A stretch of DNA of 50,997 bases, taken from contig CAIMNS010000164.1 of assembly GCA_903842945.1 (NCBI GenBank), forward strand, positions 1 to 50,997. The letters run 5' to 3'. The notes below the pieces were generated by a model that made no database searches, was not told the origin of the DNA, and saw only the letters and a list, made by a program, of their open reading frames with translations. The stretch comes from an uncultured Burkholderiales bacterium (GTDB taxonomy: Bacteria > Pseudomonadota > Gammaproteobacteria > Burkholderiales > Burkholderiaceae_C). The translations under genes were made by a program, and so were the position numbers. This document shows positions 19,896-46,853 of this stretch, piece after piece (the stretch's first letter is position 1; every line of letters starts with the position of its first letter).

Positions 19896-19962
19896 AGAGA
19901 GTCCTTGAACAGGTCTTGAAAGCTTGAGTCAAGCTCATTGGGCAAGAAACGCTTGAGTGCGA

Positions 19963-21150: not shown

Positions 21151-21184
21151 GGGTGTATCAAACGCAATGAAAGTTTTTAATGGC

Positions 21185-21901
21185 TCAAGTCATCTCTTCG
21201 TCAACCAGCCATGTCGTAAATGTTTCAGCGTTCAAACGGGGGGTCATAAAGGTGTTGACCACCTGGGTCTGGTCTGACCATCCAAGGCTCATGCCACAGA
21301 TGAGTTTTTCTTCCTCACTGGCACCAATGTGCGACATGATAACCTCAGAAAACGAGTTCCACGCCGCTTGGGGACAAGTATCAAGCCCTCTGGCCTTGGC
21401 TGCGAGCATCAGGTTTTGTAAAAACATTCCATAATCGATCAATGAACCTCCTTCAAGAGAGCGATGGGCGGTAAAGAAGAGTCCCACAGGCGCGCCAAAG
21501 AACTCAAAGTTTCTTCGATGGTGTTGATGCATTTTTTCTTTCTCGCCTTTTGCAATCCCCAAAAGAGAGTAAAGTCCCCAACCATTTTCTCTTCTTCGCT
21601 CAAGAAACGGAGACACCCAAACACTTGGGTAATACGCATAATCGGGTTGGTAGAGCCCCGCTTTTTTAGGATGCAAAAACAAATCGTCATGCAAAGCACA
21701 TACTTTTTGTACCAAACTTGCCTTGTAGGCCCCCTCAAGGACATAGACCTTCCAGGGCTGCAAGTTGGATCCTGAGGGCGCCTTGGCCGCGATGTCCAAG
21801 ATCTCAGCGATCCATGTCTTTTGAACAGGCTTGTCCAGATAAGCTCTAACACTGTGCCTGGAGGAAATTAATTCATCCATCAAATTTGGGTTGGACTTCA
21901 T
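21185..21901 (-). CDS. nitroreductase-family FMN flavoprotein
   Basis: A 238-residue member of the nitroreductase fold. FMN-contacting signatures are [13 protein letters not shown] near the N-terminus, [18 protein letters not shown] (about 35-50), and the C-terminal [17 protein letters not shown]. These enzymes reduce nitroaromatics, quinones or enones with NAD(P)H. The substrate is unknown. It starts 4 nt before the end of the thioesterase gene (ATGA overlap), so the two are translationally coupled. Confidence 0.85.
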
Positions 21902-30180: not shown

Positions 30181-31152
30181 ATGAGCTATCGATTGAGCAT
30201 CCGGTGTCTCACAAGCATTTACATGATGTTGGCATTGCAAGGCTTACAAGCCCAGACCTTTCCAACAAAACCCATCAAAGTCATTGTGCCAACAGCCAGT
30301 GGTGGCCCCAGTGACACCTGCATGCGCGCTGTCGCGCAAGCCATGCAAACCCAACTTGGACAATCCATCACCATCGAGAATGTCACGGGTGCGACGGGCA
30401 GCATTGGACTTAACAAGGTGGCGAGCTCTCCAGCCGACGGCTATACATTGGTTGTGCCAAGTGCCGCAAACACGGCAAGCTTAGCAACACGTCCACAAAA
30501 TAGCTTTGATGTGATGAGTGGATTCAAGCCGATTGGGAAAATCTGCAATGCCACCCAAACCCTTGTTGTCTCACCCTCAATGGGCATTAAAAGCGTGGAG
30601 GAATTGATCAAGTACGCAAAAGCCAATCCAGGTAAGCTGTCTTTTGGCAGCATTGGCATTGGATCCAGCCAACACTTGGTGGGAGAGATGTTTGCGGTTG
30701 CCACCGACATTGACATGCAACACATTCCCTTTAGGGGTGAGGCCTTGGCGGCCACTGAAATCGCCGCTGGGCGTGTACAACTGATGTTCATGGCAGGCGC
30801 CAAGCCCTTCATCGACAGCAAATTGGTGGTGGGTCTAGCGACGACCAACAAAGACACTTGGGCTCCCATGGCCAACTTGCCCTCTATGGCCAAAACGAGT
30901 GTGCCAGGATTCACTTACAACGGCTGGAACGGAATCATGGCACCAGCTGGCACGCCCGATCAAGTCATTCAACTTTTAAGCAAAGCCTTGGCTGAGGCTT
31001 TGAAAGACGACAAGGTTCGTGGCGTCATTTCGTCCATGGGCAACATGCCAGGTCTTGGGACTCCTGAAGAGTTGTCTGAGCAAATGAAAGCGGATATCTA
31101 CATGTTCAAAAAGATCATGAAGGATAGAAATTTAAACTTCAACGACCAGTAG
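30181..31152 (+). CDS. Bug/TctC-family periplasmic solute-binding protein (1)
   Basis: A 323-residue tripartite tricarboxylate receptor with an N-terminal signal peptide (about 24 residues ending LQAQT). The mature start PIKVIVPTASGGPSDTCMRA is the ligand-loop hallmark of Bug proteins. Family landmarks KYAKANPGKLSFGSIGIGSS and NGIMAPAGTP are present. Bug proteins bind carboxylates or amides, and the ligand is unknown. GGGAG precedes the ATG. No tctA/tctB genes are nearby, so it is an orphan receptor. It converges on the molybdenum-hydroxylase operon, which suggests but does not prove a shared substrate. Confidence 0.88.
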   Translation: MSYRLSIRCLTSIYMMLALQGLQAQTFPTKPIKVIVPTASGGPSDTCMRAVAQAMQTQLGQSITIENVTGATGSIGLNKVASSPADGYTLVVPSAANTASLATRPQNSFDVMSGFKPIGKICNATQTLVVSPSMGIKSVEELIKYAKANPGKLSFGSIGIGSSQHLVGEMFAVATDIDMQHIPFRGEALAATEIAAGRVQLMFMAGAKPFIDSKLVVGLATTNKDTWAPMANLPSMAKTSVPGFTYNGWNGIMAPAGTPDQVIQLLSKALAEALKDDKVRGVISSMGNMPGLGTPEELSEQMKADIYMFKKIMKDRNLNFNDQ

Positions 31153-31193: not shown

Positions 31194-31808
31194 CTACGGC
31201 CTCTTAAAGAGCGCCTTCAATCTGGCAATCAAGACCTTCCAGAGCAATGAAAAAGCGGAGATTTCGTTGGACCCCTGCGTGTCATTGCGCGCAGGCGAAT
31301 GGCCAGCAATCACTGCATCAGATGGTGCAACGCTCAAAGGAGAAGTGAAAGACTGAAAGTCTTTGGACTTTTGCTCTAAGTTTCTGGCAAATTGAGAAAT
31401 CAATTGCTCAGAAATTTCTGAAATCATTCCCACCCCACGTCCATATTGCGCCACCTGTCCGGCCAATTGAACATCGCTTTCAATTTGAACTTGTGTGCCC
31501 TGATCGCAGGCAAGAAGTTGGAATTTGATATCGGATTGAGCACTTCCGCGACCCTTTTCTTCACGCCAATTCGCAGACACATCGGCACACAGATTTTGCT
31601 CATCTTTCATTTTGAATTGGAGGGTACCTGCAAAAACCATCGATACGGGGCCCAACTTGACTTTGATCCGACCCTTTTGAGTGTTTTCGTCAATGAACTC
31701 TGTCAACTCGACCCCTGGGAAACAAGGGGCAATCTCTTGGATGTTCATCAAAAAGACCCAAGCGTCACGAGGTGCGAGGGGAACCGTAAATTGATTTTTT
31801 AATTGCAT
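31194..31808 (-). CDS. CoxG-like SRPBCC protein (carbon monoxide dehydrogenase subunit G family)
   Basis: A 204-residue protein. The first 145 residues form a CoxG/SRPBCC domain (MQLKNQFTVPLAPRDAWVFL, CFPGVELTEF). The C-terminus has a variable linker and a basic amphipathic/hydrophobic tail (FSLLWKVLIARLKALFKRP) that could anchor it to the membrane. CoxG proteins accompany xanthine-oxidase-family molybdenum hydroxylases and are thought to help enzyme recruitment or assembly. It is the last gene of the operon, 30 bp after the enoyl-CoA hydratase-like gene. Confidence 0.83.
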   Translation of the reverse strand: MQLKNQFTVPLAPRDAWVFLMNIQEIAPCFPGVELTEFIDENTQKGRIKVKLGPVSMVFAGTLQFKMKDEQNLCADVSANWREEKGRGSAQSDIKFQLLACDQGTQVQIESDVQLAGQVAQYGRGVGMISEISEQLISQFARNLEQKSKDFQSFTSPLSVAPSDAVIAGHSPARNDTQGSNEISAFSLLWKVLIARLKALFKRP

Positions 31809-31838
31809 ATATTCTCTAAAGACCTATCGACTTGTAAC

Positions 31839-32558
31839 TCAAGACCTCACCAGCGCGAGCAAGGTCCCAGCGTATTCAAGAGCCATATCGGGTGAAGCGT
31901 GTGTTGCTTTTTCTTGGTATTTTTTAATCGTCTCCAACACCAAGCGGGGCTTAGCAGAGAGCTTTTCAATGAACAGTTTGGTTTGCGCTTCAAAGGAGGC
32001 CTGTGCATAGACTTGACTGGCCATACCCAGTTGCTTGGCCTCTGTTGCATCCACAGATTCTGCAGAATAGATCAAATAGGAGAGCGCCTTGGCTGGGATT
32101 TTCCCAAGTGCTGCACACATGGCCATGGTGGGAGGGATATCGTGTTCAATTTCTGGAAAGGACATCTTCACTTGTGAAGAAGTGAGGGTCAAGTCACAAG
32201 CCACTGCCAAAGCGCAACCAAAACCCACCGCATCGGCGTGGACCTTTGCCACCACGGGTACGGGGACATCAGCGATTGCTTTGTAGACGTCAAGCACTGC
32301 ACCCATCATGTTGACCCTGATCTCATAGGGTGTCATACCCGTTCTGGATTCGCCTTTACCGTCTCGACCTTTGCAAAAGTAATCCCCAGAAGCTTCAATG
32401 ACCAGCAAATGGTTGGATGGGTCTTCGCCACAAGTTCTCAAAACCTTTGCCAATTGAAACATCATGGCTCGGGTCAATGCATTGCCCTCATGGGGACGAC
32501 TCAAGTCAATGTAGGAGACCGATCCTTTTTGGGTGACCTTGAATTCAAATTCAGACAT
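31839..32558 (-). CDS. enoyl-CoA hydratase/isomerase-family protein
   Basis: A 239-residue crotonase-fold protein. The oxyanion-hole segments are DYFCKGRDGKG and ADAVGFGCALAVACD, and FPEIEHDIPPTMAM occupies the catalytic-Glu region. The first differs from the common AFCAGAD pattern. The reaction may be hydration, isomerisation or hydrolysis of an acyl-CoA. HmfE of the furoate pathway, a 2-oxoglutaroyl-CoA hydrolase, belongs to the same superfamily. It is 63 bp downstream of the molybdopterin subunit gene. No CoA ligase is encoded nearby, so a CoA substrate would need a ligase elsewhere. Confidence 0.82.
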   Translation of the reverse strand: MSEFEFKVTQKGSVSYIDLSRPHEGNALTRAMMFQLAKVLRTCGEDPSNHLLVIEASGDYFCKGRDGKGESRTGMTPYEIRVNMMGAVLDVYKAIADVPVPVVAKVHADAVGFGCALAVACDLTLTSSQVKMSFPEIEHDIPPTMAMCAALGKIPAKALSYLIYSAESVDATEAKQLGMASQVYAQASFEAQTKLFIEKLSAKPRLVLETIKKYQEKATHASPDMALEYAGTLLALVRS

Positions 32559-32621
32559 TTCGTTCCTTACTAAAAATTTTCATCCTCTGATGTTGGACAT
32601 CAGAGATCCAAAGCAGATCAA

Positions 32622-34964
32622 TCATTCAGTGATCGATGCCAGATGTGGGCCTAGCAACTCAATGATTTTTTGCGGACTGATGGGTGCTTGTGAAATTTTC
32701 ACATCAAAGGGCTTGAGCGCGTTTTCTACAGCTCCAATGATCGCCGCGATGGCTGGAATGGTACCACTCTCACCCGCGCCTTTGACACCCAATGGGTTCA
32801 AAGGTGAAGGTGTTTCAAGGTGCACCAAATCTATCACAGGCATGTTCGTTGACAAAGGCATCAAGTACTCGCCAAAATTGGTAGAAACGGGTTGTGCATT
32901 TTCATCAAACACCATCTCCTCTAGCAAAGCATTGCCAATCCCATGGGCTGCACCACCGATGATTTGTCCATTGACCACCATTGGATTGATCACTTTCCCA
33001 CAGTCATGAGCGATGCACATGCGGTGGATATCCACCATGCCCGTTCCCACATCGACTTCCACCTCTGCCACAATCGTCGCATTGGAGTAGGTCGAGCGAT
33101 CAGGCATGAAGTAAGACGTGTGCTCTAAGCCAGGTTGCATGCCATTGGGCATGGCAAACCCAGGCATTCCCACTGACTTCACGGCGACTTCCTTCAATTT
33201 GCAACTGATGCTGGGGTTGGCTTTATCAAACACCACATCATTTTCAATCTCAAGATCTTCTGGGTTCTTTGACAAAATCACTGCTGCATAAGCTTTGATT
33301 TTCTTGGCAACTTCGATCGCCGCCATATGAACCGATGACCCCGCGTTGACAGCCGTCCTTGCAGCAAAGGTCCCCACTCCAAGTCCTAAATTGGCAGTGT
33401 CACCTGTCACCACCGTGATATCTGCGGGATTGGCATTGAGCTGATCAGCGGCTATTTGTGCTAGTGTCGTTTTATGCGACTGTCCCTGCGGTACAGCACT
33501 GGTATACACCGTGATTTTCCCAGTGGTAGAAATCTTAACCGTTGCCCCCTCATAAGGGCCCAATCCAGTGGCCTCGACACCATTGGCAATCCCAATGCCC
33601 AAGTAACGTCCTCTTTCTCTGGCTGCTTGTTGTCGCGTTGCAAAGCCGGCGTAATCCGCTTGATCCAACGCCGCTTGTTGACAGGCCGGGTAGTCTCCGC
33701 TGTCATAGGTCACAGGACGACCATCTCTAAAAATGATCCCCACGTTGTAAGGCATCTGCTCGGGCTGAATAAAGTTTCTTCTTCTGACCTCGGCGGGATC
33801 CAAATGCAACTCATTGGCTACACGGTCCATCAAACGCTCCATGGCAACAACCGCCTGAGGGCGACCTGCACCACGAACTGAAGTGACTTGAATCTTGTTG
33901 GTGTACATGGAATACACCTCCAACTTAAAGGCTGGGATGACATAAGGACCTGGCACTGTGGTTGCACTGATCCATGGCACCACAATTCCCCAAGGCACGT
34001 AAGCGCCATTGTCGTGAACGAGTCGACCGCGAACGCCAAGTATTTTGGCATCGTCATCGACGGCAATTTCAACATCCCAATATTGGTCTCGTTCTTGGTG
34101 CGTCGTTAAAAAATTCTCTCGTCTGTCCTCAATCCACTTGACCGGCCTTCCAAGCATCTTCGACGCAATAGAGACGTTGGCGTATTCAGGATAAAAAGAC
34201 CCCTTCGGACCAAAACCTCCACCCACATCAGGAGCCATCACCCGCAATTGACTGTCTCCGATGTCAAAGAGCTCGAGCATGCATCGTTTGATGCGATGGG
34301 AGCCCTGTGAAGAAACGTGCAAGGTGTAGGTGTCTCCAGATCTCTCATATTGAGCCACCGCACCTCTGCACTCCATAAAAAAGGGCCCTCCTCTGTGTTG
34401 AAAAAGTTTTTCTTTGAACACGTGCTTTGGATTTGCAAAGGCCTTGTCGGTGTCCCCAGACTTCACGTCAAAGTAGGCTGCCACATTGCTTGTCATACCC
34501 AAATGGGCCTTTGGAGAGCTGTCTTCCAAGGCTTGAAGACAGTCATTGGCAACGGGCAAAGGCTCGTATTCAATGTCAATCAATTGAGCAGCGTCCTCAG
34601 CAATGTAGCGATTGTCAGCAATCACACAAGCGATGGGCTCACCCACATAGCATGCCTCATCCTTGACCAAGGTATACGGCAGCTTCGTTACTTTGATAGA
34701 AGGATGTGGCACCAACAAAGGCAAGGTCTGCGCTTTCACAACATCGGGTAAATCTGCATAGGTTAAAACCGCATGCACGCCAGGGACAGCCAGGGCCTGA
34801 GACTTGTCGATCGAGATGATCTTTGCATGTGCATGCGCACTTCTAGCAAAAGCTGCATGCAGCATCCCTGGCATTTGAATATCGTCAACATAGCGACCCT
34901 CGCCCTTCAGAAATGCAGGATCCTCTTTTCTTTTAAAGGATTGGCCAAACCAAGTTGTTTTCAT
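32622..34964 (-). CDS. xanthine dehydrogenase-family molybdopterin-binding subunit
   Basis: A 780-residue large subunit of a three-part molybdenum hydroxylase. The N-terminal Ald_Xan_dh_C domain (about 15-135) starts with RYVDDIQMPGMLHAAFARSA. The Mo-cofactor domain includes DVGGGFGPKG, the loop SVRGAGRPQAVVAMERLMD, and the catalytic-Glu motif VKGAGESGTIPA near residue 725. The CO-dehydrogenase Cys loop (AYRCSF) is absent, so this is not a CO dehydrogenase. It hydroxylates an aldehyde or an electron-poor ring carbon with water as the oxygen source. It overlaps the 2Fe-2S gene by 4 nt. Confidence 0.9.
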   Translation of the reverse strand: MKTTWFGQSFKRKEDPAFLKGEGRYVDDIQMPGMLHAAFARSAHAHAKIISIDKSQALAVPGVHAVLTYADLPDVVKAQTLPLLVPHPSIKVTKLPYTLVKDEACYVGEPIACVIADNRYIAEDAAQLIDIEYEPLPVANDCLQALEDSSPKAHLGMTSNVAAYFDVKSGDTDKAFANPKHVFKEKLFQHRGGPFFMECRGAVAQYERSGDTYTLHVSSQGSHRIKRCMLELFDIGDSQLRVMAPDVGGGFGPKGSFYPEYANVSIASKMLGRPVKWIEDRRENFLTTHQERDQYWDVEIAVDDDAKILGVRGRLVHDNGAYVPWGIVVPWISATTVPGPYVIPAFKLEVYSMYTNKIQVTSVRGAGRPQAVVAMERLMDRVANELHLDPAEVRRRNFIQPEQMPYNVGIIFRDGRPVTYDSGDYPACQQAALDQADYAGFATRQQAARERGRYLGIGIANGVEATGLGPYEGATVKISTTGKITVYTSAVPQGQSHKTTLAQIAADQLNANPADITVVTGDTANLGLGVGTFAARTAVNAGSSVHMAAIEVAKKIKAYAAVILSKNPEDLEIENDVVFDKANPSISCKLKEVAVKSVGMPGFAMPNGMQPGLEHTSYFMPDRSTYSNATIVAEVEVDVGTGMVDIHRMCIAHDCGKVINPMVVNGQIIGGAAHGIGNALLEEMVFDENAQPVSTNFGEYLMPLSTNMPVIDLVHLETPSPLNPLGVKGAGESGTIPAIAAIIGAVENALKPFDVKISQAPISPQKIIELLGPHLASITE

Positions 34965-35446
34965 TTTTTCATCTCACGTATCTTTTTGGCTGCATCCAAG
35001 ACCGCATCAACAATGGGCAAATAACCTGTGCAGCGGCACACATTACCGGACAACATCTCCCTGACCTCAGGCTCACTTGGACTGGGGTTATCAAGTAAAA
35101 ACTCTGTCATGGTCATCAAGATACCAGAGGTACAAAATCCGCATTGCAGCGCATGGTGATCTTGAAAGGCTTGTTGTAATACATTTAAAACACCGTCGCT
35201 CGCCAAACCTTCTACCGTTTGAACGTGTGAATGGTGACATTGAACCCCAAGCATCAAACACGATCTGACACTGTGACCATCCACCAAAACAGTGCAAGCA
35301 CCACAAGCACCGTGCTCACAACCAACGTGCGTGCCTGTGAGTGCACATTCTTGTCTTAAAAAATCAACCAATGTTGTTCGGGTTTCAATGGACCGCGAAT
35401 AAGCGACTCCGTTGACGTTGACCGTTATTTCTCTTGTATCAGACAT
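34961..35446 (-). CDS. molybdenum hydroxylase 2Fe-2S subunit
   Basis: A 161-residue small subunit carrying two [2Fe-2S] clusters. The plant-ferredoxin-like cluster uses CEHGACGACTVLVDGHSVRSC and the second uses CGFCTSG with CRCTGY. It passes electrons from the Mo centre to FAD. ATG 35446 is chosen because AGGAG sits 7 nt upstream; the frame's earlier start at 35464 is less likely. It overlaps the FAD subunit gene by 8 nt and the Mo subunit gene by 4 nt. Confidence 0.92.
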   Translation of the reverse strand: MSDTREITVNVNGVAYSRSIETRTTLVDFLRQECALTGTHVGCEHGACGACTVLVDGHSVRSCLMLGVQCHHSHVQTVEGLASDGVLNVLQQAFQDHHALQCGFCTSGILMTMTEFLLDNPSPSEPEVREMLSGNVCRCTGYLPIVDAVLDAAKKIREMKK

Positions 35447-36314
35447 GGGAGTTCTCCTGAGCACTTGAACACGCAGCTTTTAAAACCCTGTATGACATGA
35501 TTTTGGCCAAATGTTTGCGGTAAGTTGCGTTGACATAAGAATCCTCCATGGCATCGAGCTTGGAAACTTCTGCGGCAAATGCCTTGAGCACTGGTTCTGC
35601 AGGTTTTTCACCCTGCAATGAAATCTCCATGTCTCTCATACGCTGTGGCCGATGGGTCATACCAGAAATGGAAAATGCTGCCTGAGAAATCGTTCCATTG
35701 GGAGCCAATAAAATCAAAGCTGAACAGGCCACAATCGCATAGTCGCCATGTCTTCGAGCGAACTCATCAAATGCATACCCATGCTTTTGAGATGGAACTG
35801 TGAAAGTGATGTCAGACAACATTTCACCCTCATCGATTTGAGTGGTCAAATAGCCTTGACCAAAATCGTCCATGGATACATCTCGATCGCCAGATTTTGA
35901 GATGATTTTGATCTTGGCATCCAACAAAGACGAAATATTGACCAATTCGGCGCTGGGATCGAAATGGCAAAGTGACCCACCCAAGGTGCCTCGGTTCCTG
36001 GTTTGGCGATGACCAACAAACGACAAGGCTCGAGTCAAAATGGGACATTTCTCGGAAATATCTTTTGAGAATTCGATGCTCCTTTGACGCGTCATGGCAC
36101 CAATGTTCAATTGATTGCCAGAAAATCGAATGAAATCCAACTCTGTGACATGATTTAAATCGATCAAGTGGTCTGGCATGAGAAAGCGAAAGTTCATCAT
36201 GGGCATGAGGGACTGACCTCCTGCCAATAACTTTGAATTTTCAAGCGTTGAAATTAAATCCAACACCTCACTTCTTGTGTGAGGATCGTGGTAAGTAAAT
36301 GGTGCGGGTTTCAT
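35439..36314 (-). CDS. molybdenum hydroxylase FAD-binding subunit
   Basis: A 291-residue medium subunit of the xanthine oxidase family. FAD-binding signatures are LLAGGQSLMPMMNFR (about 31-45) and TRNRGTLGGSLCHFDPSAE (about 105-123). The C-terminal CO_deh_flav_C domain follows (about 170-285). It hands electrons to an external acceptor. The four genes UbiD, FAD, 2Fe-2S and Mo are joined by 11-bp or shorter gaps, so they form one transcription unit. Confidence 0.9.
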   Translation of the reverse strand: MKPAPFTYHDPHTRSEVLDLISTLENSKLLAGGQSLMPMMNFRFLMPDHLIDLNHVTELDFIRFSGNQLNIGAMTRQRSIEFSKDISEKCPILTRALSFVGHRQTRNRGTLGGSLCHFDPSAELVNISSLLDAKIKIISKSGDRDVSMDDFGQGYLTTQIDEGEMLSDITFTVPSQKHGYAFDEFARRHGDYAIVACSALILLAPNGTISQAAFSISGMTHRPQRMRDMEISLQGEKPAEPVLKAFAAEVSKLDAMEDSYVNATYRKHLAKIMSYRVLKAACSSAQENSHV

Positions 36315-36325
36315 AGGGGCTTATC

Positions 36326-37960
36326 TTAAAATTTCTCAACGGTGGAAGTTGGCGTCTCAGGACTTAAATCCTCTCGACAACGCAAGAGGGTCTCTAAACC
36401 ATTGGCCTCCCAGTCACCTGCAACAGCACGCTGGGCAAATTTTTCCCATGTGTCGTTCCAGTCCCCTAGGGTATAGCCATGCCAAGGTTGCTTCATGACC
36501 AAAGGCGGCAGACCCAACTCGTCCCAAAGATCCTTTGCACGGAGCATGTACGGCTTTGCTGGCAAAGCCAAGGGAGCTAAATCATGTTTTTGAGTCGCAT
36601 CGATCAACAACGTGGACTCTTCTTTTTTGGGACCATATTGAGAACCTTGAACACCCCGCCGATAAGGAACCAATTGAACATCGGTCATGGGCGTCATCCT
36701 ATAGGCCATCGACCAAAAGACCGCATCTGTACTTTGCGGGTCGATGTCTTCACTGACAGCGACTACAATTTTTCCACATTCAGGTCTTAATGTGGAGGCG
36801 CCATGTAAACCACGCCAAACCTCAGTTTTATTCGCACCCCTTTCAAACTGCAAGAAAATCACCGGCCGTAAATTTGACAGTGGCTCGTGCATGACCACGC
36901 GTTTGACGCATTTGATAGACATCTCATCTCTAAGATGAGACAAAAATATAGGCTCATAAGCCACCCGCTTGACCACACTTGACTCACTTGGGGTGACTTG
37001 ACTGATGATGGCCGTAAAGACTGCTTTTTTTCGGTGGGTAATGGCCGTGACTTGCATAGGCATATTGAATGCCTCCAAGGCGACATACCCATTGCTCTCG
37101 CCAAACGGAGCCTCAGGCTCCAAGGTCGAGGGATCGATCAGCCCTTCGATGACGATTTCACTGTCTGCGGGAACTTGTAAGTCAACACTGAGACACTTGA
37201 CCATTCGAATAGGCTCACCCGCTAAAGCACCCGCGACCGCAATCTCATCCAAGTCGACGGCCAATTTTTGTGGCCCCGTAAAGAACACGATCGGAGAAGA
37301 ACCAATCACGATGGCCATTGGCATCAGTTCTTTTCTCTCTCGGTACTTCAGCCAATGCACCCAGCCACCAGCACCACCCACACGGGCCACCATGCGCACC
37401 ACCAATCGATCTGTTGCTTTGAGGGCAGCACGATAGGTACCCATATTTTGAACACCGCTGTCTGGATCTTTCGAAATGCATAAAGTTGCCGTCAAATAAG
37501 GTGCTGCATCAAAGCCAGGGGTGGAAATAGGAACAGGTAAAAGAGCGAGACCGCCGCCATCCTTCTTTAAGTCATCTCCTTGTATCACCACATCTTGGCA
37601 AGGTGCTTGACTGACGTAGACTGGTGGAATAGGATTTTTGATGGCTTGCATCCAGGCTTTGCCAATGTTATCCACCTGTTGCCCCATCCCAATCGCATAG
37701 ATGTCCGCAGATGATGCAAATGCTCCAATCGACACAGGCATGTCGTAGCGCTTGCCTTTTGAATCTACGACATTGGTGAACAGAAAAGCTTTTCTTTGCT
37801 CTTCTGGCAATCCACCTACAAACTGCCATCGAACCAAGGGTTGCATCTCGGTGTCTTTGTTGATGGGCTGATCTATGGTGACCAATAAGCCTCTTTGATC
37901 TAGATCAGCCAAATGCTCTTGAAAGTTATTGGCTGGTTTTATTTTTTTATCTTCAGACAT
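36326..37960 (-). CDS. UbiD-family prenyl-FMN-dependent decarboxylase
   Basis: A 544-residue UbiD-fold (de)carboxylase, longer than E. coli UbiD (about 497). Active-site features fit a working enzyme: NMGTYR gives the Asn and Arg five residues apart that contact prenyl-FMN, and EAPFGE supplies the two catalytic Glu residues of the E-x4-E motif. UbiD relatives remove carboxylates from aromatic, furan or unsaturated acids. The cofactor-making UbiX is not in the window. ATG 37960 has GAGGG at 6-nt spacing; GTG 37963 is less likely. Its position between a Bug receptor and a Mo hydroxylase points to a carboxylated aromatic or heteroaromatic substrate, not ubiquinone synthesis. Confidence 0.87.
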   Translation of the reverse strand: MSEDKKIKPANNFQEHLADLDQRGLLVTIDQPINKDTEMQPLVRWQFVGGLPEEQRKAFLFTNVVDSKGKRYDMPVSIGAFASSADIYAIGMGQQVDNIGKAWMQAIKNPIPPVYVSQAPCQDVVIQGDDLKKDGGGLALLPVPISTPGFDAAPYLTATLCISKDPDSGVQNMGTYRAALKATDRLVVRMVARVGGAGGWVHWLKYRERKELMPMAIVIGSSPIVFFTGPQKLAVDLDEIAVAGALAGEPIRMVKCLSVDLQVPADSEIVIEGLIDPSTLEPEAPFGESNGYVALEAFNMPMQVTAITHRKKAVFTAIISQVTPSESSVVKRVAYEPIFLSHLRDEMSIKCVKRVVMHEPLSNLRPVIFLQFERGANKTEVWRGLHGASTLRPECGKIVVAVSEDIDPQSTDAVFWSMAYRMTPMTDVQLVPYRRGVQGSQYGPKKEESTLLIDATQKHDLAPLALPAKPYMLRAKDLWDELGLPPLVMKQPWHGYTLGDWNDTWEKFAQRAVAGDWEANGLETLLRCREDLSPETPTSTVEKF

Positions 37961-38017
37961 CACATACCCTCAGACTCTTTGCGAGTCGACATTGAATTCA
38001 ATCATCAAAAAAATACG

Positions 38018-39007
38018 CTACTTCAAAACTCGCCCGCTTGAGAGCAGTTTTATATTCAATTCATACTCTTCCCGAACACGGGCTTGAAAGTGCTCGCTGC
38101 TAGAAGCTAGAACTGTAAAACCAACGGCCTCAAAGGCCTCCTTGGTCTTTGGATGTTTCAAGGCAGTTTGAAGTGCACTTTGAAGTTTATTGGACACCTC
38201 CAGAGGAATTCCCTCAGCCGCAACAAAACCAATCCATGATGAGTAGGTCCAATTCTTAAGCTCCTGAACACCACTTTCCTTCATGGTTGGCAGCGCTGGC
38301 AACCTGTCGTTCCTATTTGCACCCGTGATTCCAAGGGCGATCAAAGAGCCGTTGTTGATGTGGTTCAATACGTCACCAACATCGGGCATGAGCATATTGA
38401 CTTCACCAGACAAAACACCCATCAGTGCGGGGCCACTGGACTTGTATGGGACATGCAGCACATTCAAACCCAGCACATTCAAAAAAGAGGCCGTTGAGAA
38501 ATGCAACGTCGTTCCATTGCCTCCACTGCCATAGGTCAACTTGCCTGGATTCGCTTTGGCATAGGCAATCAATTCAATTAGATTTTTGACTGGGATTGAT
38601 GGGTTGATCACAAGAACACGGTTATTTTCAATACCGTTGGCCAACATGACAAAATCCTTAAGGGGATCATAGCCAATGTTTTTGTCAATCGCTGGACTGA
38701 TGGTCATTGACGCGGCGGAACACGCAGCGAAGGTATAGCCGTCTTTAGGTGAGCGCAACAAGGTCTCAATGCCAATTTTTTGCGACGCTCCTGGTTTGTT
38801 GATGATGACCACTCGCTGATCCAAAATCTTTGACATCTCATTGGCAACAATTCTTGCCGTCATATCAACTGGCCCTCCAGGGGCAGTGGGGACAATCAAG
38901 GTAATGGGTTTACTTGGATAAATGTCTGCACCAAATGCAACATTCAACAAGGCAAAAAAGAATGCCAAGAAAAAAAGTAAAGGTGTTTTAATCGGGAAGT
39001 TATGCAT
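38018..39007 (-). CDS. Bug/TctC-family periplasmic solute-binding protein (2)
   Basis: A 329-residue receptor with a signal peptide (hydrophobic LLFFLAFFFALLNVAFG). The mature start is PSKPITLIVPTAPGGPVDMTARI, with the Asp in the ligand loop. YAKANPGKLTYGSGGNGT and SWIGFVAAEGIP are family landmarks. It is the first gene of the operon with UbiD and the Mo hydroxylase (54-bp gap), so its ligand is probably the substrate of that pathway. The start ATG 39007 lacks a strong RBS. Confidence 0.87.
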   Translation of the reverse strand: MHNFPIKTPLLFFLAFFFALLNVAFGADIYPSKPITLIVPTAPGGPVDMTARIVANEMSKILDQRVVIINKPGASQKIGIETLLRSPKDGYTFAACSAASMTISPAIDKNIGYDPLKDFVMLANGIENNRVLVINPSIPVKNLIELIAYAKANPGKLTYGSGGNGTTLHFSTASFLNVLGLNVLHVPYKSSGPALMGVLSGEVNMLMPDVGDVLNHINNGSLIALGITGANRNDRLPALPTMKESGVQELKNWTYSSWIGFVAAEGIPLEVSNKLQSALQTALKHPKTKEAFEAVGFTVLASSSEHFQARVREEYELNIKLLSSGRVLK

Positions 39008-39443
39008 CAAAGGACAGCCAAAACCATGATGAGTTTTGCGTTTTAATATGACATCTCATTATTGAGCTATTTTGTATTTTAAGCAATAGATCTCTCCCTT
39101 ATCAACCCATTGATCTAGTGTTGATGGATTTGCGTTGAACTGCGTGTTCAAGCCTTGGCTAAGATTCATTTCCAATCAATCCAAATTACTCCGCATCCGC
39201 ATTGCAACCCTTTAATCAAGCTTCTTGCCAATTACAAAAGCTAGTTGTTTTAAATTCATCAATTCCACGATTCAATCATTTGATAAGCGGCTGAACGTGA
39301 ACACAATCAATCTGGTGTTAAAAAAGTAACTACTGATCTGAAGCTATCATTTTCACTAGGGTTAGCACTCTAACTGTGCATGGCACATCAATCGTCAAAT
39401 AGGCTCTGAAGTCACCTAAGATCAAGTCGATGGAGTCCCAAGC
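39008..39443. other. 436-bp intergenic region
   Basis: This AT-rich stretch between divergent Bug-2 and the DUF2892-like gene holds no believable ORF or RNA. It must contain the promoter of the seven-gene operon. A weak minus-strand match, TTGCTT-17 bp-AATAAT, lies around 39060-39090. A small hairpin GTTAG-CACT-CTAAC lies near 39362-39376. No regulator gene accompanies the operon. Confidence 0.5.
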
Positions 39444-39681: not shown

Positions 39682-40686
39682 TCAAGACGCGAAGTCTTCG
39701 GTATCGACTTCAACAGAATTTTGGGCGTTGTAGCGAGGACCTGTAACGGTCTTGTGATTGATCAATCCCTCCAAGCGCTGCATCACCTCCTCACTCAAAT
39801 TCAAACCCACAGCTCCCCAATTGTCCGCCAAATGATCGGCGTTTTGCGTGCCTGGTATGGCAATGAGTTGCGGCTCTTTGGTCAACAACCAAGAAAGTGC
39901 CAACTGAGCAGGTGTGTGTCCAAGCTCTTTGGCCAACTTGAAGTATTCAGGCAGGAGGGTTTGATTTTTCTTGAAATTCTCTGGCTCAAACCTAGGCATG
40001 GCTCGACGAATATCTTTGGCGTCCAATTGCGTGACATCCAAATCGATGGAACATAAAAACCCCCTTGCAACTGGACTGAAGGCCACAAAGGCAATGCCCA
40101 AGTCCTTGCAGGTTTTTAAAACAGCGATCTCAGGGTTTCGACTCCATAATGAATACTCCGTTTGAACCGCAGAGATAGGGTGCACTTGGTGTGCTTTTTT
40201 GATCGTTGCCGATGAGACTTCACTCAAACCAATGGCTCTCACCTTGCCTTGGACAATCAAATCCGCAAGCGCACCTACACTGTCCTCAATGGGCACTTTT
40301 TTATCCCAACGGTGCAAATAATAGAGATCGATCACATCCGTTTTCAAACGCATCAAGCTGTCTTCACAGTTTTTCTTGATGGCCTCAGGCCGTCCGTCAA
40401 TCACCCTTTTCATGCCGTCAGGAAATTGCACGCCAGCCATGCCCCCCTTGGAGCACAACGTAATCTCAGAACGGTGGGCCTTTAAGAGAGGTCCTAACAA
40501 GGACTCATTGGCCCCAAAACCGTAAAGAGCTGCCGTATCAAACAAATCCACCCCAAGGTCAAGCGCTCGATGAACCACTTTGGCAGCAGCTTGCGCAGTT
40601 GGGGGCGTGCCATAAGCGTGGCTAAGGTTCATGCACCCCAATCCAATGGGATGAACCTGAAATGGACCGATCGAGCGTTTGGACAT
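39682..40686 (-). CDS. aldo/keto reductase
   Basis: A 334-residue AKR-fold oxidoreductase. The catalytic tetrad is visible as Asp in LFDTAALYG, Tyr in the same motif, Lys in TLCSKGG and His in LYYLHRWDKK. C-terminal TKEPQLIAIPGTQNADHLAD is the NADPH-binding region. It starts 30 bp after ligC, so it is probably co-transcribed with the protocatechuate cluster. It may reduce or oxidise an aldehyde intermediate, but no specific role in this pathway is known to me. Confidence 0.85.
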   Translation of the reverse strand: MSKRSIGPFQVHPIGLGCMNLSHAYGTPPTAQAAAKVVHRALDLGVDLFDTAALYGFGANESLLGPLLKAHRSEITLCSKGGMAGVQFPDGMKRVIDGRPEAIKKNCEDSLMRLKTDVIDLYYLHRWDKKVPIEDSVGALADLIVQGKVRAIGLSEVSSATIKKAHQVHPISAVQTEYSLWSRNPEIAVLKTCKDLGIAFVAFSPVARGFLCSIDLDVTQLDAKDIRRAMPRFEPENFKKNQTLLPEYFKLAKELGHTPAQLALSWLLTKEPQLIAIPGTQNADHLADNWGAVGLNLSEEVMQRLEGLINHKTVTGPRYNAQNSVEVDTEDFAS

Positions 40687-40716
40687 AGGAAATCTACTTT
40701 TGAAGAAAATGGAGAA

Positions 40717-41670
40717 TCAATGGTGCATTTGTTGCTCTAAATCATGGAGCACTTGGTAACAAGCCAAGACGTTTTCAACGCTTGAGTTGGGTTGTCGACC
40801 TTCTCTGATGGCCGCAAAGAATTCGCGGTCTTGAATTTCAATGCCATTCATGCTCACGTCGACTTTTGAAACATCAATTTGCTCTTCTTTGCCATTGTAC
40901 AAATCGTCGTACTTGGCCAAGTAGGTTCCCGTGTCACCTATGTAACGAAACCAAGTCCCCAAGGGTCCATCGTTGTTGAACGACAGCGACAAGGTACAGA
41001 TCGCGCCATTGGCCGCTTTCAGTTGAACACTCATGTCCATGGAAATACCCAATGCAGAATGAATAGGGCCTTGGATGGCATTGGCTTTGACGATGGGGCT
41101 ACCGCACTGGTAAGCAAACAGATCAACCGTGTGCGCAGCATGGTGCCACAACAAGTGGTCCGTCCAACTTCTGGGTTGACCCAAAGCATTCATATTGGTT
41201 CTTCTGAAAAAATACGTTTGAACATCCATTTGCTGGATGTTGAATTCGCCCGCTTTGATTTTTTTGTTGATCCATTGGTGACTGGGGTTGTAGCGTCTTG
41301 TATGACCGGCCATGGCCACAAGGCCGCTGGCTTTTTGCAAAGCCACAATGGCTTTGGCATCATCAAGGCGGTCGGCCATGGGAATCTCAACTTCCACATG
41401 CTTGCCCGCCTGAAGGCATTGAATCGTTTGCTGAGCATGCATTTGAGTAGGGGTGCACAAAATCACGGCGTCCACTTCCGAAATCGCCAAGCTCTCGGCC
41501 AAGTCGGTTGTGACGTGTGCAATGCCATATTGTTTAGCAATCTCTTGAGTCTTATCAAGGGTGCGCCCGACCAAAGAAATAACTTCAACGCCATCGATTT
41601 TCTTGATGCCATCAAGATGCTTGTTACCAAATGCACCTGCCCCTGCAAGGGCGACTTTAATTGTTTTCAT
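40717..41670 (-). CDS. ligC: 4-carboxy-2-hydroxymuconate-6-semialdehyde dehydrogenase
   Basis: A 317-residue Gfo/Idh/MocA-fold dehydrogenase closely resembling LigC/PmdC. It oxidises the hemiacetal form of the ring-cleavage product CHMS to 2-pyrone-4,6-dicarboxylate with NAD(P). The Rossmann start VALAGAGAFGNKHLDGIK, CTPTQMHAQQTIQCLQAGKH and the strongly LigC-like IQQMDVQTYFFRRTNMNALG and WTDHLLWHHAAHTVDLFAYQ are visible. ATG 41670 follows AAGGA at good spacing, and the earlier start at 41712 would overlap ligB. It lies 38 bp downstream of ligB. Confidence 0.92.
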   Translation of the reverse strand: MKTIKVALAGAGAFGNKHLDGIKKIDGVEVISLVGRTLDKTQEIAKQYGIAHVTTDLAESLAISEVDAVILCTPTQMHAQQTIQCLQAGKHVEVEIPMADRLDDAKAIVALQKASGLVAMAGHTRRYNPSHQWINKKIKAGEFNIQQMDVQTYFFRRTNMNALGQPRSWTDHLLWHHAAHTVDLFAYQCGSPIVKANAIQGPIHSALGISMDMSVQLKAANGAICTLSLSFNNDGPLGTWFRYIGDTGTYLAKYDDLYNGKEEQIDVSKVDVSMNGIEIQDREFFAAIREGRQPNSSVENVLACYQVLHDLEQQMHH

Positions 41671-41708
41671 AGAATTTTCCTTTTGACTGATATTGAATAA
41701 TGAATGGT

Positions 41709-42997
<1,289 letters not shown>

Positions 42998-43008
<11 letters not shown>

Positions 43009-43927
43009 GTTGCGTCTCCTCAGGCCAATACAAACGACTTGGGTTATCGACCAACAAACGCTGTTGAAGGGCAACTGTCGTGGCAATCAAGGGGATGAAG
43101 TCCACCAACAAACCATCATCAGGCATGTGATCCTTTAAATTGGGGTGAGGCCAATCAGTGCCCCAAATGACTCGATCAGGAAAGGTCTCCACCAAACGCT
43201 TGGCAAATGGAACGACGTCGTGATAAGCGTTTCGCTCACCATGAAGGGCGGCAGGTCCCGTTACTGTCAGTCTTTCTGGACAAGTGACCTTGCTCCATAC
43301 ATTTTGATGCTCGGTCATGAATTTAATGAACAATTCAAACTCAGGCCCATCCACAGGCTTGGTGACATCGGGTCGGCCCATATGATCCACAACAACAGTG
43401 GTGGGTAAAGCTGTAAAGAAATCCCACAGTTCGGGCAAATCCACAGCCTCAAAGTAAATGACCACATGCCAACCCCACTTGGCAATGCGTCCAGCAATTT
43501 CCATCAACTCGTCCTTGGGCGTGAAGTCAACCAAGCGCTTCACAAAATTGAATCTGACCCCGCGCACGCCGGCATCATGCAGCTTTTGAATCTCTGCATC
43601 GCTCACATCTCGTTTGACCGTTGCCACTCCTCTGGCTTTACCGCCTGAGTGTGTGAGCGCATCCACGAGGGCCCTGTTGTCAGCGCCATGGCAAGTGGCT
43701 TGAACAATGATGTTTTTGGCAAAGCCCAAATGATCTCTCAAGGCAAACAATTGCTCTTTGCTGGCATCGCAGGGCGTGTACTTTCTCTCTGGCGAATAGG
43801 GAAACACATCCGAGGGTCCAAACACATGACAATGCGAATCGATCGCACCTGCTGGCAGTTTGAACTGTGGTTTTGAAGGGCCTTGGTACCAATCAAGCCA
43901 GCCGGGGGTTTTAGTAAAGTCAGTCAT
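42998..43927 (-). CDS. ligI: 2-pyrone-4,6-dicarboxylate hydrolase
   Basis: A 309-residue amidohydrolase (COG3618 type) that opens the lactone 2-pyrone-4,6-dicarboxylate to 4-oxalomesaconate. The His-x-His motif appears in AIDSHCHVFGP, with the further motifs RGVRFNFVKRLVD, VVVDHMGRPDV and VIWGTDWPHPN (catalytic Asp). LigI works without a metal. ATG 43927 has GAGGAA at proper spacing, whereas the frame extends to 44065 inside the upstream gene. It overlaps ligA by 11 bp. Confidence 0.93.
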
Positions 43928-43973
43928 TTCAAATTCCTCAATTTCAATTTCACTATCAATGTCGTTGCAGTTT

Positions 43974-45014
43974 TTAATCGGGTTTGATCTGAGCTTGGCG
44001 AATGAGTTTTTCATATCGCACGCGCTCTGAATGCAACAATTCGGCAAATTGCTCTTTGGATGCAAGCGTCACTTCACCCCCTACAGAGCTCATCTTTTCT
44101 CTCACCTCTGAACTCGTCAAGGCCTTTTGCACCTCTTGATGCAAAAGAACCAATATGTTTTTGGGTGTGGCGCTGGGCGCCACCACACCGTACCACACCG
44201 ATGCCTCAAATCCAGGAAAACCTTGTTCAGACAACGTCAACGCATCCGGAAACATAGGCGTTCTCTTGGAACTCAAAACAGCCAACACTTTGAGTTTACC
44301 GCTGCTCACATGCGGCAGCACCTCCAAGGCATTCATGGACAACACTGGAACTTGCCCCCCTAAAACATCGGTCACGGCCTGAGCACCACCCTTGTAGGGA
44401 ATGTGCGTCAACTCAATGGCTGCAGCTCTTGCAAAAATCTCCATGGCCAAATGGGGGGTCGAGCCATTACCAGGACTGGCATATGAAATGCTTTTGGGGT
44501 CTGACTTGGCTTTCTCCATCAGCAAAGCAACATTTCTCAAGGGAGAATTCGAAAGGGTCGCAATCACAACAGGGATCTTGCCCACCAAGGACACGACGGC
44601 CAACTCCTTTTCAGCATCAAAAGGGGCGGGTTGATAAAGCGACATGTTAGCCGCCAGTGCATTGGCGGCCAACATCAGGGTGTGTCCATCAGGTTCAGCA
44701 GCAATGACCGATTTGACGGCAATGTTGGTCCCCGCTCCAGGCTTGTTTTCAACCACAAAGGTCATACCCATTTGAGCGGAGAGACCTTTGGACAGTGCTC
44801 TGGCGACAAGATCAACCGCTCCTCCAGCCGAGTAGCCCACAATCATTTTGATGGGCTTGTTGGGATTCAAAGATGAGGTCAAGGGCGCGAGCTGAGCAAA
44901 TACATTCGAAATGCCACACCCTGTCATCAAGCAAGCCACGGCCAACAAGGTCTTGGGCTTGATACCCAACCACCCACGTTCATGAACTTCAAGCTCAAGT
45001 GACCGTCTTGCCAT
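43974..45014 (-). CDS. Bug/TctC-family periplasmic solute-binding protein (3), inside the lig operon
   Basis: A 346-residue Bug receptor. The signal segment LLAVACLMTGCGISNVFAQ contains a Cys in a possible lipobox (LMTGC). The mature start PIKMIVGYSAGGAVDLVARA has the ligand-loop Asp. ATG 45014 after AAGGGGA is preferred to 45077, which would overlap ligK. It lies between the ligK and ligI genes, 62 and 46 bp from its neighbours, and is almost certainly co-transcribed. Its ligand may be protocatechuate or a related acid, or a pathway by-product. Confidence 0.87.
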   Translation of the reverse strand: MARRSLELEVHERGWLGIKPKTLLAVACLMTGCGISNVFAQLAPLTSSLNPNKPIKMIVGYSAGGAVDLVARALSKGLSAQMGMTFVVENKPGAGTNIAVKSVIAAEPDGHTLMLAANALAANMSLYQPAPFDAEKELAVVSLVGKIPVVIATLSNSPLRNVALLMEKAKSDPKSISYASPGNGSTPHLAMEIFARAAAIELTHIPYKGGAQAVTDVLGGQVPVLSMNALEVLPHVSSGKLKVLAVLSSKRTPMFPDALTLSEQGFPGFEASVWYGVVAPSATPKNILVLLHQEVQKALTSSEVREKMSSVGGEVTLASKEQFAELLHSERVRYEKLIRQAQIKPD

Positions 45015-45076
45015 CAGTGTCCCCTTAAAAAAAACACGTGCTACATAAAGCTCTTTGATCCAATGTGCCATTGCCA

Positions 45077-45766
45077 TCAGTCGATGTATTTCAATCCAGC
45101 CTTCTCTAAGGGTTCCCGCATCTTGTACATATCTAAGCCCAAGACGCCTGCTGCCAACTTTTCTCTTTTGGCACCCTCATTGTCTTCGCGGGCTTGAGCA
45201 GCATCGGCGGCCTGAGCGGCAATGTGCGCTGGCACCACCACCACACCATCGTCATCGGCCAACACCACATCGCCTGGACTGACAAGTGTGCCTGCACAAA
45301 CCACGGGGAAGTTCACTGAGCCAAGCGTTGCTTTGATGGTGCCTTTTGCGCTGATGCCCTTGCTCCATACAGGAAAGCCCATCTCGGTCAACTCTTTGAC
45401 GTCTCTGACACCGGCATCAATGATCAAGCCCTTCGCGCCCCTGGCCTTGAAAGATGTTGCCAAGAGATCGCCAAAGAAGCCGTCGCAATTGTCGGCACTC
45501 AGAGCCACAACAACGATGTCACCTGGATGAATTTGCTCCGCAGCCACGTGCAGCATCCAATTGTCCCCGGGGTGAACCAATACAGTCACTGCTGTTCCAG
45601 CCACTCTTGCGCCTGTGTAAATGGGTCGCATGTAGGCTTGCATCAAACCCACGCGGCCCATGGCTTCGTGAACGGTGGCAACGCCAAAATGCTCCAAACG
45701 CTTGACTTGAGCGGCATCGGCTCTTGTGATGCCACGCTTGACGCAACCCATGGTGTTCATTGACAT
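45077..45766 (-). CDS. ligK: 4-carboxy-4-hydroxy-2-oxoadipate aldolase/oxaloacetate decarboxylase
   Basis: A 229-residue class II aldolase of the RraA/HMG-CHA aldolase fold that splits 4-carboxy-4-hydroxy-2-oxoadipate into pyruvate and oxaloacetate, and may decarboxylate the oxaloacetate. Active-site segments are [40 protein letters not shown] (GxxRD metal/substrate loop) and [15 protein letters not shown] 45766 is used, with AAGGA upstream, in preference to TTG 45772. The gene follows ligJ by 40 bp. Confidence 0.92.
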
Positions 45767-45806
45767 GATCAATTCCTTTTATTTTTAAACTTGGTGATGC
45801 ACTGAA

Positions 45807-46853
45807 TCAACTATTTTTTGCTTTCAATGCCGCGTCCATTTTGGGGAACACTCGTCGGGCATTGCCTTCATACACCATGTAACGCTCTTGCGCATTCAAG
45901 TGCGGGGTGGATTCAATGTAGCGCTTGGTGTCATCAAAATAGTGACCCGTTTCTGGGTCAATCCCACGAACGGCACCAATCATTTCACTGGCAAACAAAA
46001 TGTTTTTCACTGGAATGACCTTGGTCAAGAGGTCAATGCCTGGTTGGTGGTAAACACAGGTGTCAAAATAGATGTTGTTCAACAAATGCTCAGACAAAAG
46101 TGGTTTTTTCAACTCTTGGGCCAAACCTCTGAATCGGCCCCAGTGGTAAGGAACTGCGCCGCCGCCATGAGGAATCAAGAAACGAAGTGTTGGAAAATCT
46201 TTGAACAAATCGGAGGTCAAGCACTGCATGAAAGCGGTCGTGTCGGCATTCAAATAGTGTGCACCTGTCGTATGAAAGCAAGCGTTGCAACTGGTCGACA
46301 CATGAACCATGGCTGGAATATCGTACTCCACCATCTTTTCGTAAATAGGATACCAATGTCGATCCGACAAAGGGGGTGAGGTCCAATGACCGCCGGATGG
46401 ATCTGGGTTCAAGTTGATACCAACAAAGCCATAGTCTTTCACACACTTGTCGATCTCGGCGATCGAAGTTTTGGGGTCCACCCCAGGAGACTGAGGCAGC
46501 ATGGCTGCCCCCATGAAGTTGTCAGGAAACAGTTGCGCCACGCGATAACACAACTCATTACAAATGGCCGCCCAAGTCGATGAGACTTGAAAGTCACCGA
46601 TGTGATGCGCCATGAAGCTGGCGCGTGGGCTGAAAATGGTGATGTCACTGCCGCGTTGCTTCATCAACTTCAATTGATTGGCCTCAATCGTTTCGCGCAG
46701 CTCGTCATCGCTGATTTTCAGATCCGCCACTTTGGGCATCATGGATGGATCTTTGATGCCAGCAATTTGCTTGTTTCTCCACTCTTCCAGCGCCTTTGGG
46801 GCGGTGGTGTAGTGGCCATGCACATCAATGATCAAGGGGTTGGTCGTGCTCAT
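45807..46853 (-). CDS. ligJ: 4-oxalomesaconate hydratase
   Basis: A 348-residue amidohydrolase-2-type hydratase that adds water to 4-oxalomesaconate to give 4-carboxy-4-hydroxy-2-oxoadipate. The metal motif IIDVHGHYTTAP opens the protein. VGINLNPDPSGGHW, FLIPHGGGAVPYHWGRFRGL and ILFASEMIGAVRGIDPETG are strongly LigJ-like. ATG 46853 follows GAAGGA. It is the first gene of the lig operon, with a leader of repeats (46877-46949). Confidence 0.93.
   Translation of the reverse strand: MSTTNPLIIDVHGHYTTAPKALEEWRNKQIAGIKDPSMMPKVADLKISDDELRETIEANQLKLMKQRGSDITIFSPRASFMAHHIGDFQVSSTWAAICNELCYRVAQLFPDNFMGAAMLPQSPGVDPKTSIAEIDKCVKDYGFVGINLNPDPSGGHWTSPPLSDRHWYPIYEKMVEYDIPAMVHVSTSCNACFHTTGAHYLNADTTAFMQCLTSDLFKDFPTLRFLIPHGGGAVPYHWGRFRGLAQELKKPLLSEHLLNNIYFDTCVYHQPGIDLLTKVIPVKNILFASEMIGAVRGIDPETGHYFDDTKRYIESTPHLNAQERYMVYEGNARRVFPKMDAALKAKNS

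Follow-up and report, generated by a model that had tools for sequence, protein, structure and literature searches.

A seven-gene UbiD, molybdenum hydroxylase and crotonase operon of a Burkholderiales bacterium, distinct from hmf and possibly catabolic for a heteroaromatic carboxylic acid

The window analysed here is a stretch of 50,997 nucleotides, contig C164 (CAIMNS010000164.1) of the draft genome of an uncultured Burkholderiales bacterium (GCA_903842945.1), and all coordinates refer to the whole stretch. It carries seven co-directional open reading frames (ORFs) on the minus strand at 31194–39010, in the order Bug-UbiD-FAD-FeS-MoL-crotonase-CoxG according to the ORF list and Pfam, against whose gathering scores the ORFs were checked. 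The first gene encodes a Bug/TctC-type periplasmic solute receptor (38018..39010; TctC, 212.7 bits) that starts at TTG 39010 or ATG 39007. It is followed by a predicted UbiD-family decarboxylase dependent on prenylated flavin mononucleotide (prFMN), a member of an uncharacterised clade (36326..37963; UbiD, 170.1 bits; start GTG 37963 or ATG 37960). Three genes then encode a molybdenum (Mo) hydroxylase: the flavin adenine dinucleotide (FAD) subunit (35439..36314; FAD_binding_5, 142.5 bits, plus CO_deh_flav_C), the [2Fe-2S] subunit (34961..35464; Fer2_2, 101.0 bits) and the CoxL-like molybdopterin-binding large subunit (MoL; 32622..34964; MoCoBD_1, 250.3 bits, plus MoCoBD_2). For the [2Fe-2S] subunit, ATG 35446 is the more likely start than GTG 35464. 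The operon ends with a crotonase-fold protein of an FCxGR/(P/M)PT subfamily, a proposed hydrolase (31839..32558; ECH_1, 112.1 bits), and a CoxG-like protein (31194..31808; COXG, 54.1 bits), which may help to mature the Mo enzyme or to bring it to the membrane. A first-pass annotation had described seven contiguous minus-strand genes of these identities, and all seven ORFs are indeed present, each above the gathering score of its own family; its range, 31194–39007, differs only in the start codon chosen for Bug. The tight spacing that it described was also measured. Gaps of 54, 11, 63 and 30 bp separate Bug from UbiD, UbiD from FAD, MoL from crotonase and crotonase from CoxG, and the FAD and FeS genes overlap by 8 bp (with the ATG start at 35446), the FeS and MoL genes by 4 bp.

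To follow the operon in other genomes we used the best 80 related loci (57–95% UbiD identity) from one scan of named genomes, queried with a ten-row UbiD alignment. A near-identical operon is found in L066, with 78–95% identity per protein, and the order UbiD-FAD-FeS-MoL recurs in seven further named betaproteobacterial loci (L067–L071, L073 and L075; UbiD 70–76%, MoL 66–70%). The arrangement is thus not a product of chance. Neighbours were counted by BLAST labels against our own reference set, which leaves unlabelled genes uncounted, and within the examined flank only, many contigs being short. On these terms, a Mo subunit flanks UbiD in 44 of the 80 loci, at no more than 5 kb in 42 of these. 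The other labels were FAD (32 loci), FeS (33), crotonase of any type (15), CoxG (14), UbiX (14), another UbiD (11), alpha/beta hydrolase (23) and a thiamine pyrophosphate (TPP) enzyme (15). Where 10 kb was available on either side (40 loci), Mo genes become fewer with distance from UbiD, numbering 23, 8, 3 and 1 in successive 2.5-kb bins.

Within the order, 399 genomes were surveyed, with at most three UbiD and two Mo candidates scored per genome. With E-value limits of 1e-170 for UbiD (about 50% identity or more) and 1e-220 for the Mo subunit, matches were obtained in 26 and 20 of them, respectively. Window-type UbiD (at least 72%) occurs in five genomes including our own and, among the scored candidates, Mo subunits of at least 66% occur only in the same five; the next best reaches 52%. 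Four of the five carry the Mo subunit on the same contig, and in the fifth (G373) a contig edge truncates the locus. Mo subunits of other clades also occur with this UbiD clade. One such form, from alphaproteobacteria (L036, L110, L112, L117, L119 and L124), has one or two Mo large subunits, an NMT1-type ATP-binding cassette receptor, GntR and UbiX, joined in L036, L112, L117 and L124 by a TPP enzyme and TctA. NCS2 nucleobase-type permease genes occur in 7/80 loci (L080, L110, L074, L123, L125, L128 and L130; 45–78% to one from Paraburkholderia), which hints at planar heterocyclic substrates. Two metagenome-assembled genome records, L067 and L144, are titled Bordetella parapertussis and Klebsiella pneumoniae and are suspected to be misnamed environmental bacteria.

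The first-pass annotation had compared the operon with the hmf genes. For this comparison we used the clusters of a Cupriavidus oxalaticus plasmid (L065), C. necator pENH92 (L061) and Geobacillus (L062). The window UbiD has the domain, the fold and the E-R-E triad of the UbiD family, and its best sequence match in the PDB, at about 31% identity, is an HmfF structure. It is 27–31% identical to four HmfF proteins, namely those of L065, L061 and L062 and the solved one of P. thermopropionicum, with 33% over one local match. In a tree of 41 hand-picked rows, covering 24 of the 80 related loci, it falls inside a separate 32-row clade with support of 100/100; the HmfF rows stand elsewhere, together with another UbiD of the same genome, on contig C96. 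Long branches were flagged for AnInD, AroY, E. coli UbiD, set A of the same genome (see below) and the stem that joins the HmfF and window sides. Deep placements and the exact relation of the two sides are therefore unsure, but the 32-row clade itself is solid. Alignment A2 was made without L014. All 32 clade rows keep the catalytic Arg and both Glu residues of the triad. The column of HmfF Arg304, a residue that we take to be of functional importance, holds Tyr in 30 rows and Leu in the other two. At HmfF His296 (chain position) all 32 clade rows have Ser and all five HmfF-type rows have His; AroY, which is no furan enzyme, has His there as well. This His, numbered H297, is reported in PMC7976604 as key for furan substrates.

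The Mo hydroxylase has what is expected of the xanthine oxidase family by Pfam and motif, namely subunits for FAD, two [2Fe-2S] clusters and the molybdenum cofactor, together with the Glu of VKGAGESG, which is presumably catalytic. MoL is only ~35% identical to HmfA. In a tree of 36 hand-picked rows (16 of the 80 related loci, with two rows for L112 and three for L133, and four loci with G handles), HmfA joins Mo subunits of the type found in set B of the same genome (support 100/99), and the window MoL lies in a different, well supported clade; the two carbon monoxide (CO) dehydrogenases pair by themselves. In the window MoL, SVRGAGR replaces the AYRCSFR loop. CSFR is present in both CO dehydrogenase references, and we take its Cys to be the Cu/Mo-binding residue. 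The best PDB match of MoL is quinoline 2-oxidoreductase, at ~38%, but quinoline oxidoreductase, the CO dehydrogenases and hydroxypseudooxynicotine dehydrogenase are nearly equidistant (35–38%). A Variovorax paradoxus VAI-C plasmid (L063) encodes a Mo enzyme 51.5% identical to the window's, with an FCxGR crotonase, a PcaD-like hydrolase, CaiB, thiolase and a glucose-methanol-choline oxidoreductase; no UbiD is annotated across the 22 kb shown.

The crotonase-fold protein is 22% identical to HmfE and has FCKGRD where HmfE has FSSGGD. All 11 aligned crotonases that accompany the UbiD or Mo clade of the window share the FCxGR and (P/M)PT motifs, which are absent from HmfE and four HmfE-like proteins of the same alignment; in the nine rows of alignment A3, FC, GR, Glu136 and PT are invariant. 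The position of this gene may be taken by a different protein. The order in L077 is FAD-FeS-MoL-crotonase-UbiD-SDR-Bug, SDR being a short-chain dehydrogenase/reductase, and that in L082 is PcaD-like hydrolase-UbiD-SDR-Bug, with UbiD 88% and SDR 75% (169 residues) identical to L077 and the contig ending at the hydrolase slot. L084, L088 and L091 have the order MoL-PcaD-like-UbiD. The L077 crotonase and the L088 hydrolase have no detectable similarity. Six alpha/beta hydrolases from these clusters were compared with NCBIfam, and every one has a 3-oxoadipate enol-lactonase model (PcaD or PcaD-fusion) as its best match, at 146–208 bits and below cut-off in each case. The esterase of set A in our genome, FrsA-like by Pfam and from another UbiD branch, is not among these six.

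A fuller form of the cluster is found in Paraburkholderia sp. BL9I2N2 (L118, L154 and L155), in the order PcaD-like, CoxG, FAD, FeS, MoL, FCxGR crotonase, UbiD, UbiX, succinate-semialdehyde dehydrogenase and second UbiD. Its succinate-semialdehyde dehydrogenase scores 723 bits with TIGR01780 (cut-off 646) and 787 with the stricter NF008415, below the 828 required. Among the flanking genes are one of the major facilitator superfamily, closest to aromatic-acid symporters though below cut-off, one for an NCS2 nucleobase-type permease and one for a GntR regulator. The gene order recurs in Burkholderia sp. Ac-20365, and L127 has a partial succinate-semialdehyde dehydrogenase gene at its contig edge. 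The Mo subunit of the Paraburkholderia form is nearest one from Variovorax.

The draft genome itself (3.2 Mb, 97% complete) contains five UbiD genes and two flavoprotein-family genes. Of hmfD and ubiX, both missing from the window, ubiX does exist elsewhere: it lies on contig C100 (268 bits; NCBIfam cut-off 188), directly after a paralogous UbiD, so that a UbiX that could supply prFMN is encoded within the genome. An HmfD orthologue was not found in the genome, where only generic acyl-CoA (coenzyme A) ligases were matched (best-scoring 31%), and no HmfD-like CoA ligase was labelled in the examined flank of any of the 80 loci. An HmfA orthologue was likewise not found in the genome (matches up to 36%). 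UbiX on C100 belongs to set B, which reads FAD-FeS-MoL-PcaD-like alpha/beta hydrolase-crotonase-CoxG-Bug-solute-binding protein-UbiD_B2, opposite LysR-UbiD_B1-UbiX. Set A, on the same contig, combines a UbiD that is ~23% identical, a Mo hydroxylase and the FrsA-like esterase. Both sets lie inside ~36 kb (L008–L010) with UbiX and several Bug genes, and the region is a catabolic island. Contig C96 (L011) has an HmfF-type UbiD, 50% identical to the C. oxalaticus HmfF of L065 and with the His/Arg pair kept. Two Bug genes precede it, and on the opposite strand lies an acyl-CoA ligase gene whose product has 31% identity to HmfD; in this genome, C96 is a likelier site for furan catabolism. In another Burkholderiales genome (L075), a second, HmfF-like UbiD (19870–21489; 33% to HmfF) lies 8 kb from the window-type operon. 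From 22 matches we counted 18 distinct Mo large-subunit frames in our genome, which seems rich for 3.2 Mb.

Within the window, a second Bug receptor (30181..31152, plus strand; TctC, 162.8 bits) is convergent with the operon and outside the range first annotated; relatives 55–60% identical to it stand directly after MoL in L067, L068, L071 and L073. Upstream lies a protocatechuate 4,5-cleavage operon (39682..46853, minus strand; aldo/keto reductase, LigC, LigB, LigA, LigI, Bug, LigK and LigJ), a neighbour rather than part of the core, with a LysR gene (47154–48065) divergent from it. PCA_ligA (229.5; cut-off 108.6) and ligK_PcmE (394.6; cut-off 304.5) score clearly, LigB, OxRdtase_C and the aldo/keto reductase are recognised by Pfam, and LigI and LigJ are assigned by Amidohydro_2 and position only. 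The internal Bug receptor spans 43974–45017, and the aldo/keto reductase stands at the operon's end. A gap of 671 bp separates this operon from the seven-gene operon and contains a promoter-like site, although such sites are not above shuffled-sequence level. Adjacency of the two operons was seen in the window, in G018 (same genus) and in L066 only. LigA/LigB occur near UbiD in one of the 80 loci, so the protocatechuate neighbourhood is local, and conserved linkage with ligAB was not found among these loci.

We tentatively propose, at somewhat less than an even chance, that the operon is catabolic for an imported (hetero)aromatic carboxylic acid, which would undergo decarboxylation, ring hydroxylation with water-derived oxygen and hydrolytic opening of a lactone. 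The proposal builds on the observed gene content, protein families, conserved catalytic residues, recurrence and gene swap; the reactions are predicted from these, and the order of decarboxylation and hydroxylation, the ring type and the independence from CoA are putative in the scheme that follows. The Bug receptors would import the acid, and the prFMN-dependent UbiD would take off a carboxyl group, with prFMN supplied by the UbiX encoded on C100. The three-subunit Mo hydroxylase could then hydroxylate the ring with oxygen from water at the carbon adjacent to the heteroatom; the resulting hydroxy-heteroaromatic would have an enol lactone (or lactam) as its tautomer. Electrons would leave through the Fe-S and FAD subunits, and CoxG would serve the Mo enzyme. 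The window has one UbiD and a crotonase without a PcaD-like protein, and the crotonase-fold protein is therefore our candidate for hydrolytic ring opening, the job proposed for the PcaD-like enol-lactonase in sister operons. When furan is hydroxylated beside its oxygen, the product is 2(3H)-furanone, which is succinate semialdehyde in its enol-lactone form; pyrrole gives the matching lactam. An enol-lactonase-like step with a succinate-semialdehyde dehydrogenase after it suggests a ring made of a C4 skeleton and a closing heteroatom. As substrate, a mono- or dicarboxylate of a five-membered O- or N-heteroaromatic ring is most likely, and the end product would most likely be a C4 semialdehyde that enters the tricarboxylic acid cycle as succinate. 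The two UbiDs of the Paraburkholderia form suggest a dicarboxylate.

Several observations weigh against this proposal. No Mo subunit was labelled in the examined flank of 36/80 loci, many of them on short contigs, and succinate-semialdehyde dehydrogenase was found in only three of the 80, all Burkholderiaceae, and not in the window. The exchange of crotonase for a PcaD-like protein amounts to one clean case, L077 against L082, L084, L088 and L091, and in L078, where MoL adjoins UbiD, the slot carries no labelled gene. The Paraburkholderia, Variovorax and own set-B clusters each hold both a PcaD-like protein and a crotonase, and the two may therefore act one after the other and not as alternatives. 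Mo hydroxylases normally attack electron-poor carbons, so that furan or pyrrole rings lacking activation would be difficult substrates; hydroxylation may come before decarboxylation, the carboxylates easing attack on the ring.

The gene swap argues against a CoA-thioester substrate of the crotonase, but those of the 50 listed structural matches that are crotonases of named function act on CoA esters and argue for one (they include 4-chlorobenzoyl-CoA dehalogenase, PaaG, LiuC, MenB and feruloyl-CoA hydratase/lyase). CaiB-type CoA-transferase in the flank of 5/80 loci and thiolase genes in some favour a CoA-dependent route, in which a CaiB-type enzyme would stand in for the HmfD ligase and the crotonase would act on a CoA ester. 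In L088 and L091 an OB-fold (oligonucleotide/oligosaccharide-binding) protein, thiolase and CaiB follow UbiD, and the Variovorax Mo cluster combines CaiB, thiolase and crotonase. Yet the window has no match to the reference CaiB or CoA ligase, CaiB was not found in the examined flank of the other 75 loci, and enol-lactonase-like proteins appear able to occupy the crotonase's slot; we consider a CoA-dependent route somewhat unlikely. The boldest form of our own proposal we hold to be rather unlikely as well. It would be a CoA-independent route for furan- or pyrrole-type carboxylates in which an unstudied UbiD subfamily works with several distinct Mo clades to make a hydroxy-heteroaromatic (enol lactone or lactam), the crotonase acts as an enol-lactonase on a free substrate, and the product is succinate semialdehyde, not the 2-oxoglutarate of hmf.

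Two other explanations turn on the neighbouring operon. Ammonia and the product of protocatechuate 4,5-cleavage can together give pyridine-2,4-dicarboxylate, and the seven-gene operon could salvage this dead-end product or act on another six-membered N-heteroaromatic carboxylate. Its position after the protocatechuate operon in the window, G018 and L066, the quinoline 2-oxidoreductase match of MoL and the NCS2 permease genes favour this idea; the adjacency in a single one of the 80 loci and the near-equal distance of MoL from enzymes of other substrates speak against it, and the label set had LigB but no other dioxygenase or amidase, which leaves such genes unlabelled. A pyridine or other six-membered N-heteroaromatic substrate is unlikely in our view. 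It is very unlikely that the operon forms an upper pathway from a benzenoid polycarboxylate to protocatechuate: it does lie on the same strand directly after the protocatechuate operon, but the same limited adjacency and the 671-bp gap with its own promoter-like site, for what such sites are worth, count against this, and we know of no precedent for hydroxylation of an unactivated benzene ring by the xanthine dehydrogenase family. The first-pass annotation had left a choice between a split hmf-like set and a different route. In the former, furan-2,5-dicarboxylate and 2-furoate would be degraded via furoyl-CoA, and other parts of the genome would supply hmfD and ubiX. The protein families are those of the L065 and L061 clusters, which bears out the hmf-like logic that the annotation recognised; HmfF is the closest UbiD structure by sequence, and UbiX does sit elsewhere. 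Against these stand the separate UbiD clade with its Ser in place of the HmfF His (a contrast qualified by the His of AroY), the grouping of HmfA with set-B-type subunits, a crotonase without FSSGGD, the missing HmfD orthologue and an HmfF homologue of the genome's own on C96. We hold a split or reduced hmf system to be highly improbable, and the suspicion of a different route is borne out to the extent that UbiD, MoL and crotonase are not orthologous to their hmf counterparts. Membership in hmf was rejected: HmfF-type UbiD, HmfA-type MoL, HmfD ligase and HmfE-type crotonase are all absent from the operon.

The UbiD clade is widespread, as the 80 loci and the 26 genomes of the order indicate. 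If the proposed lactone route holds, it would provide a second way to mineralise heteroaromatic acids and a crotonase-fold enzyme that works as a lactonase, and its decarboxylases could possibly be run backwards for CO2 fixation.

Comparing the operon with set B of the same genome reveals the same UbiD clade (52–55%), the same partner types and an FCxGR crotonase. However, the Mo subunit of set B belongs to another clade, nearest HmfA, and set B has a PcaD-like hydrolase, a second UbiD, UbiX and LysR in addition. Form I CO dehydrogenase (CoxLMS, CoxG) has the subunit make-up and CoxG in common with the operon. Identity is only ~35–37%, the CO-binding Cys motif is absent from the window MoL, and the operon adds UbiD and crotonase partners.

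Among UbiD enzymes, the pyrrole-2-carboxylate decarboxylase HudA/PA0254 and the indole-3-carboxylate decarboxylase AnInD share the fold and act on heteroaromatic acids, and AnInD also has the E-R-E triad (checked). They are 22% (structural alignment) and 24% identical to the window UbiD, and a Mo hydroxylase partner is not named for them in the available text of PMC7976604 and PMC8988006. As is proposed for the window operon, the lum cluster for lumichrome (vitamin B2) catabolism hydroxylates a heteroaromatic by a xanthine-oxidase-type enzyme after decarboxylation. Its decarboxylase is thiamin-dependent, Rieske and extradiol dioxygenases open the ring, and UbiD is not mentioned in the main text (PMC12746152).

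A close likeness in overall design is with hmf (HmfFG and HmfABCDE), whose gene roles are set out in PMC12064950 and whose gene set appears in L065 as UbiD-UbiX-Bug-MoL-FAD-FeS-AMP (adenosine monophosphate) ligase-crotonase. The window operon differs in gene order and in its added CoxG, and it is without CoA ligase and UbiX. Both systems nevertheless combine a UbiD decarboxylase, a three-subunit Mo hydroxylase, a crotonase-fold protein and a Bug receptor under what would be the same logic of water-derived hydroxylation.

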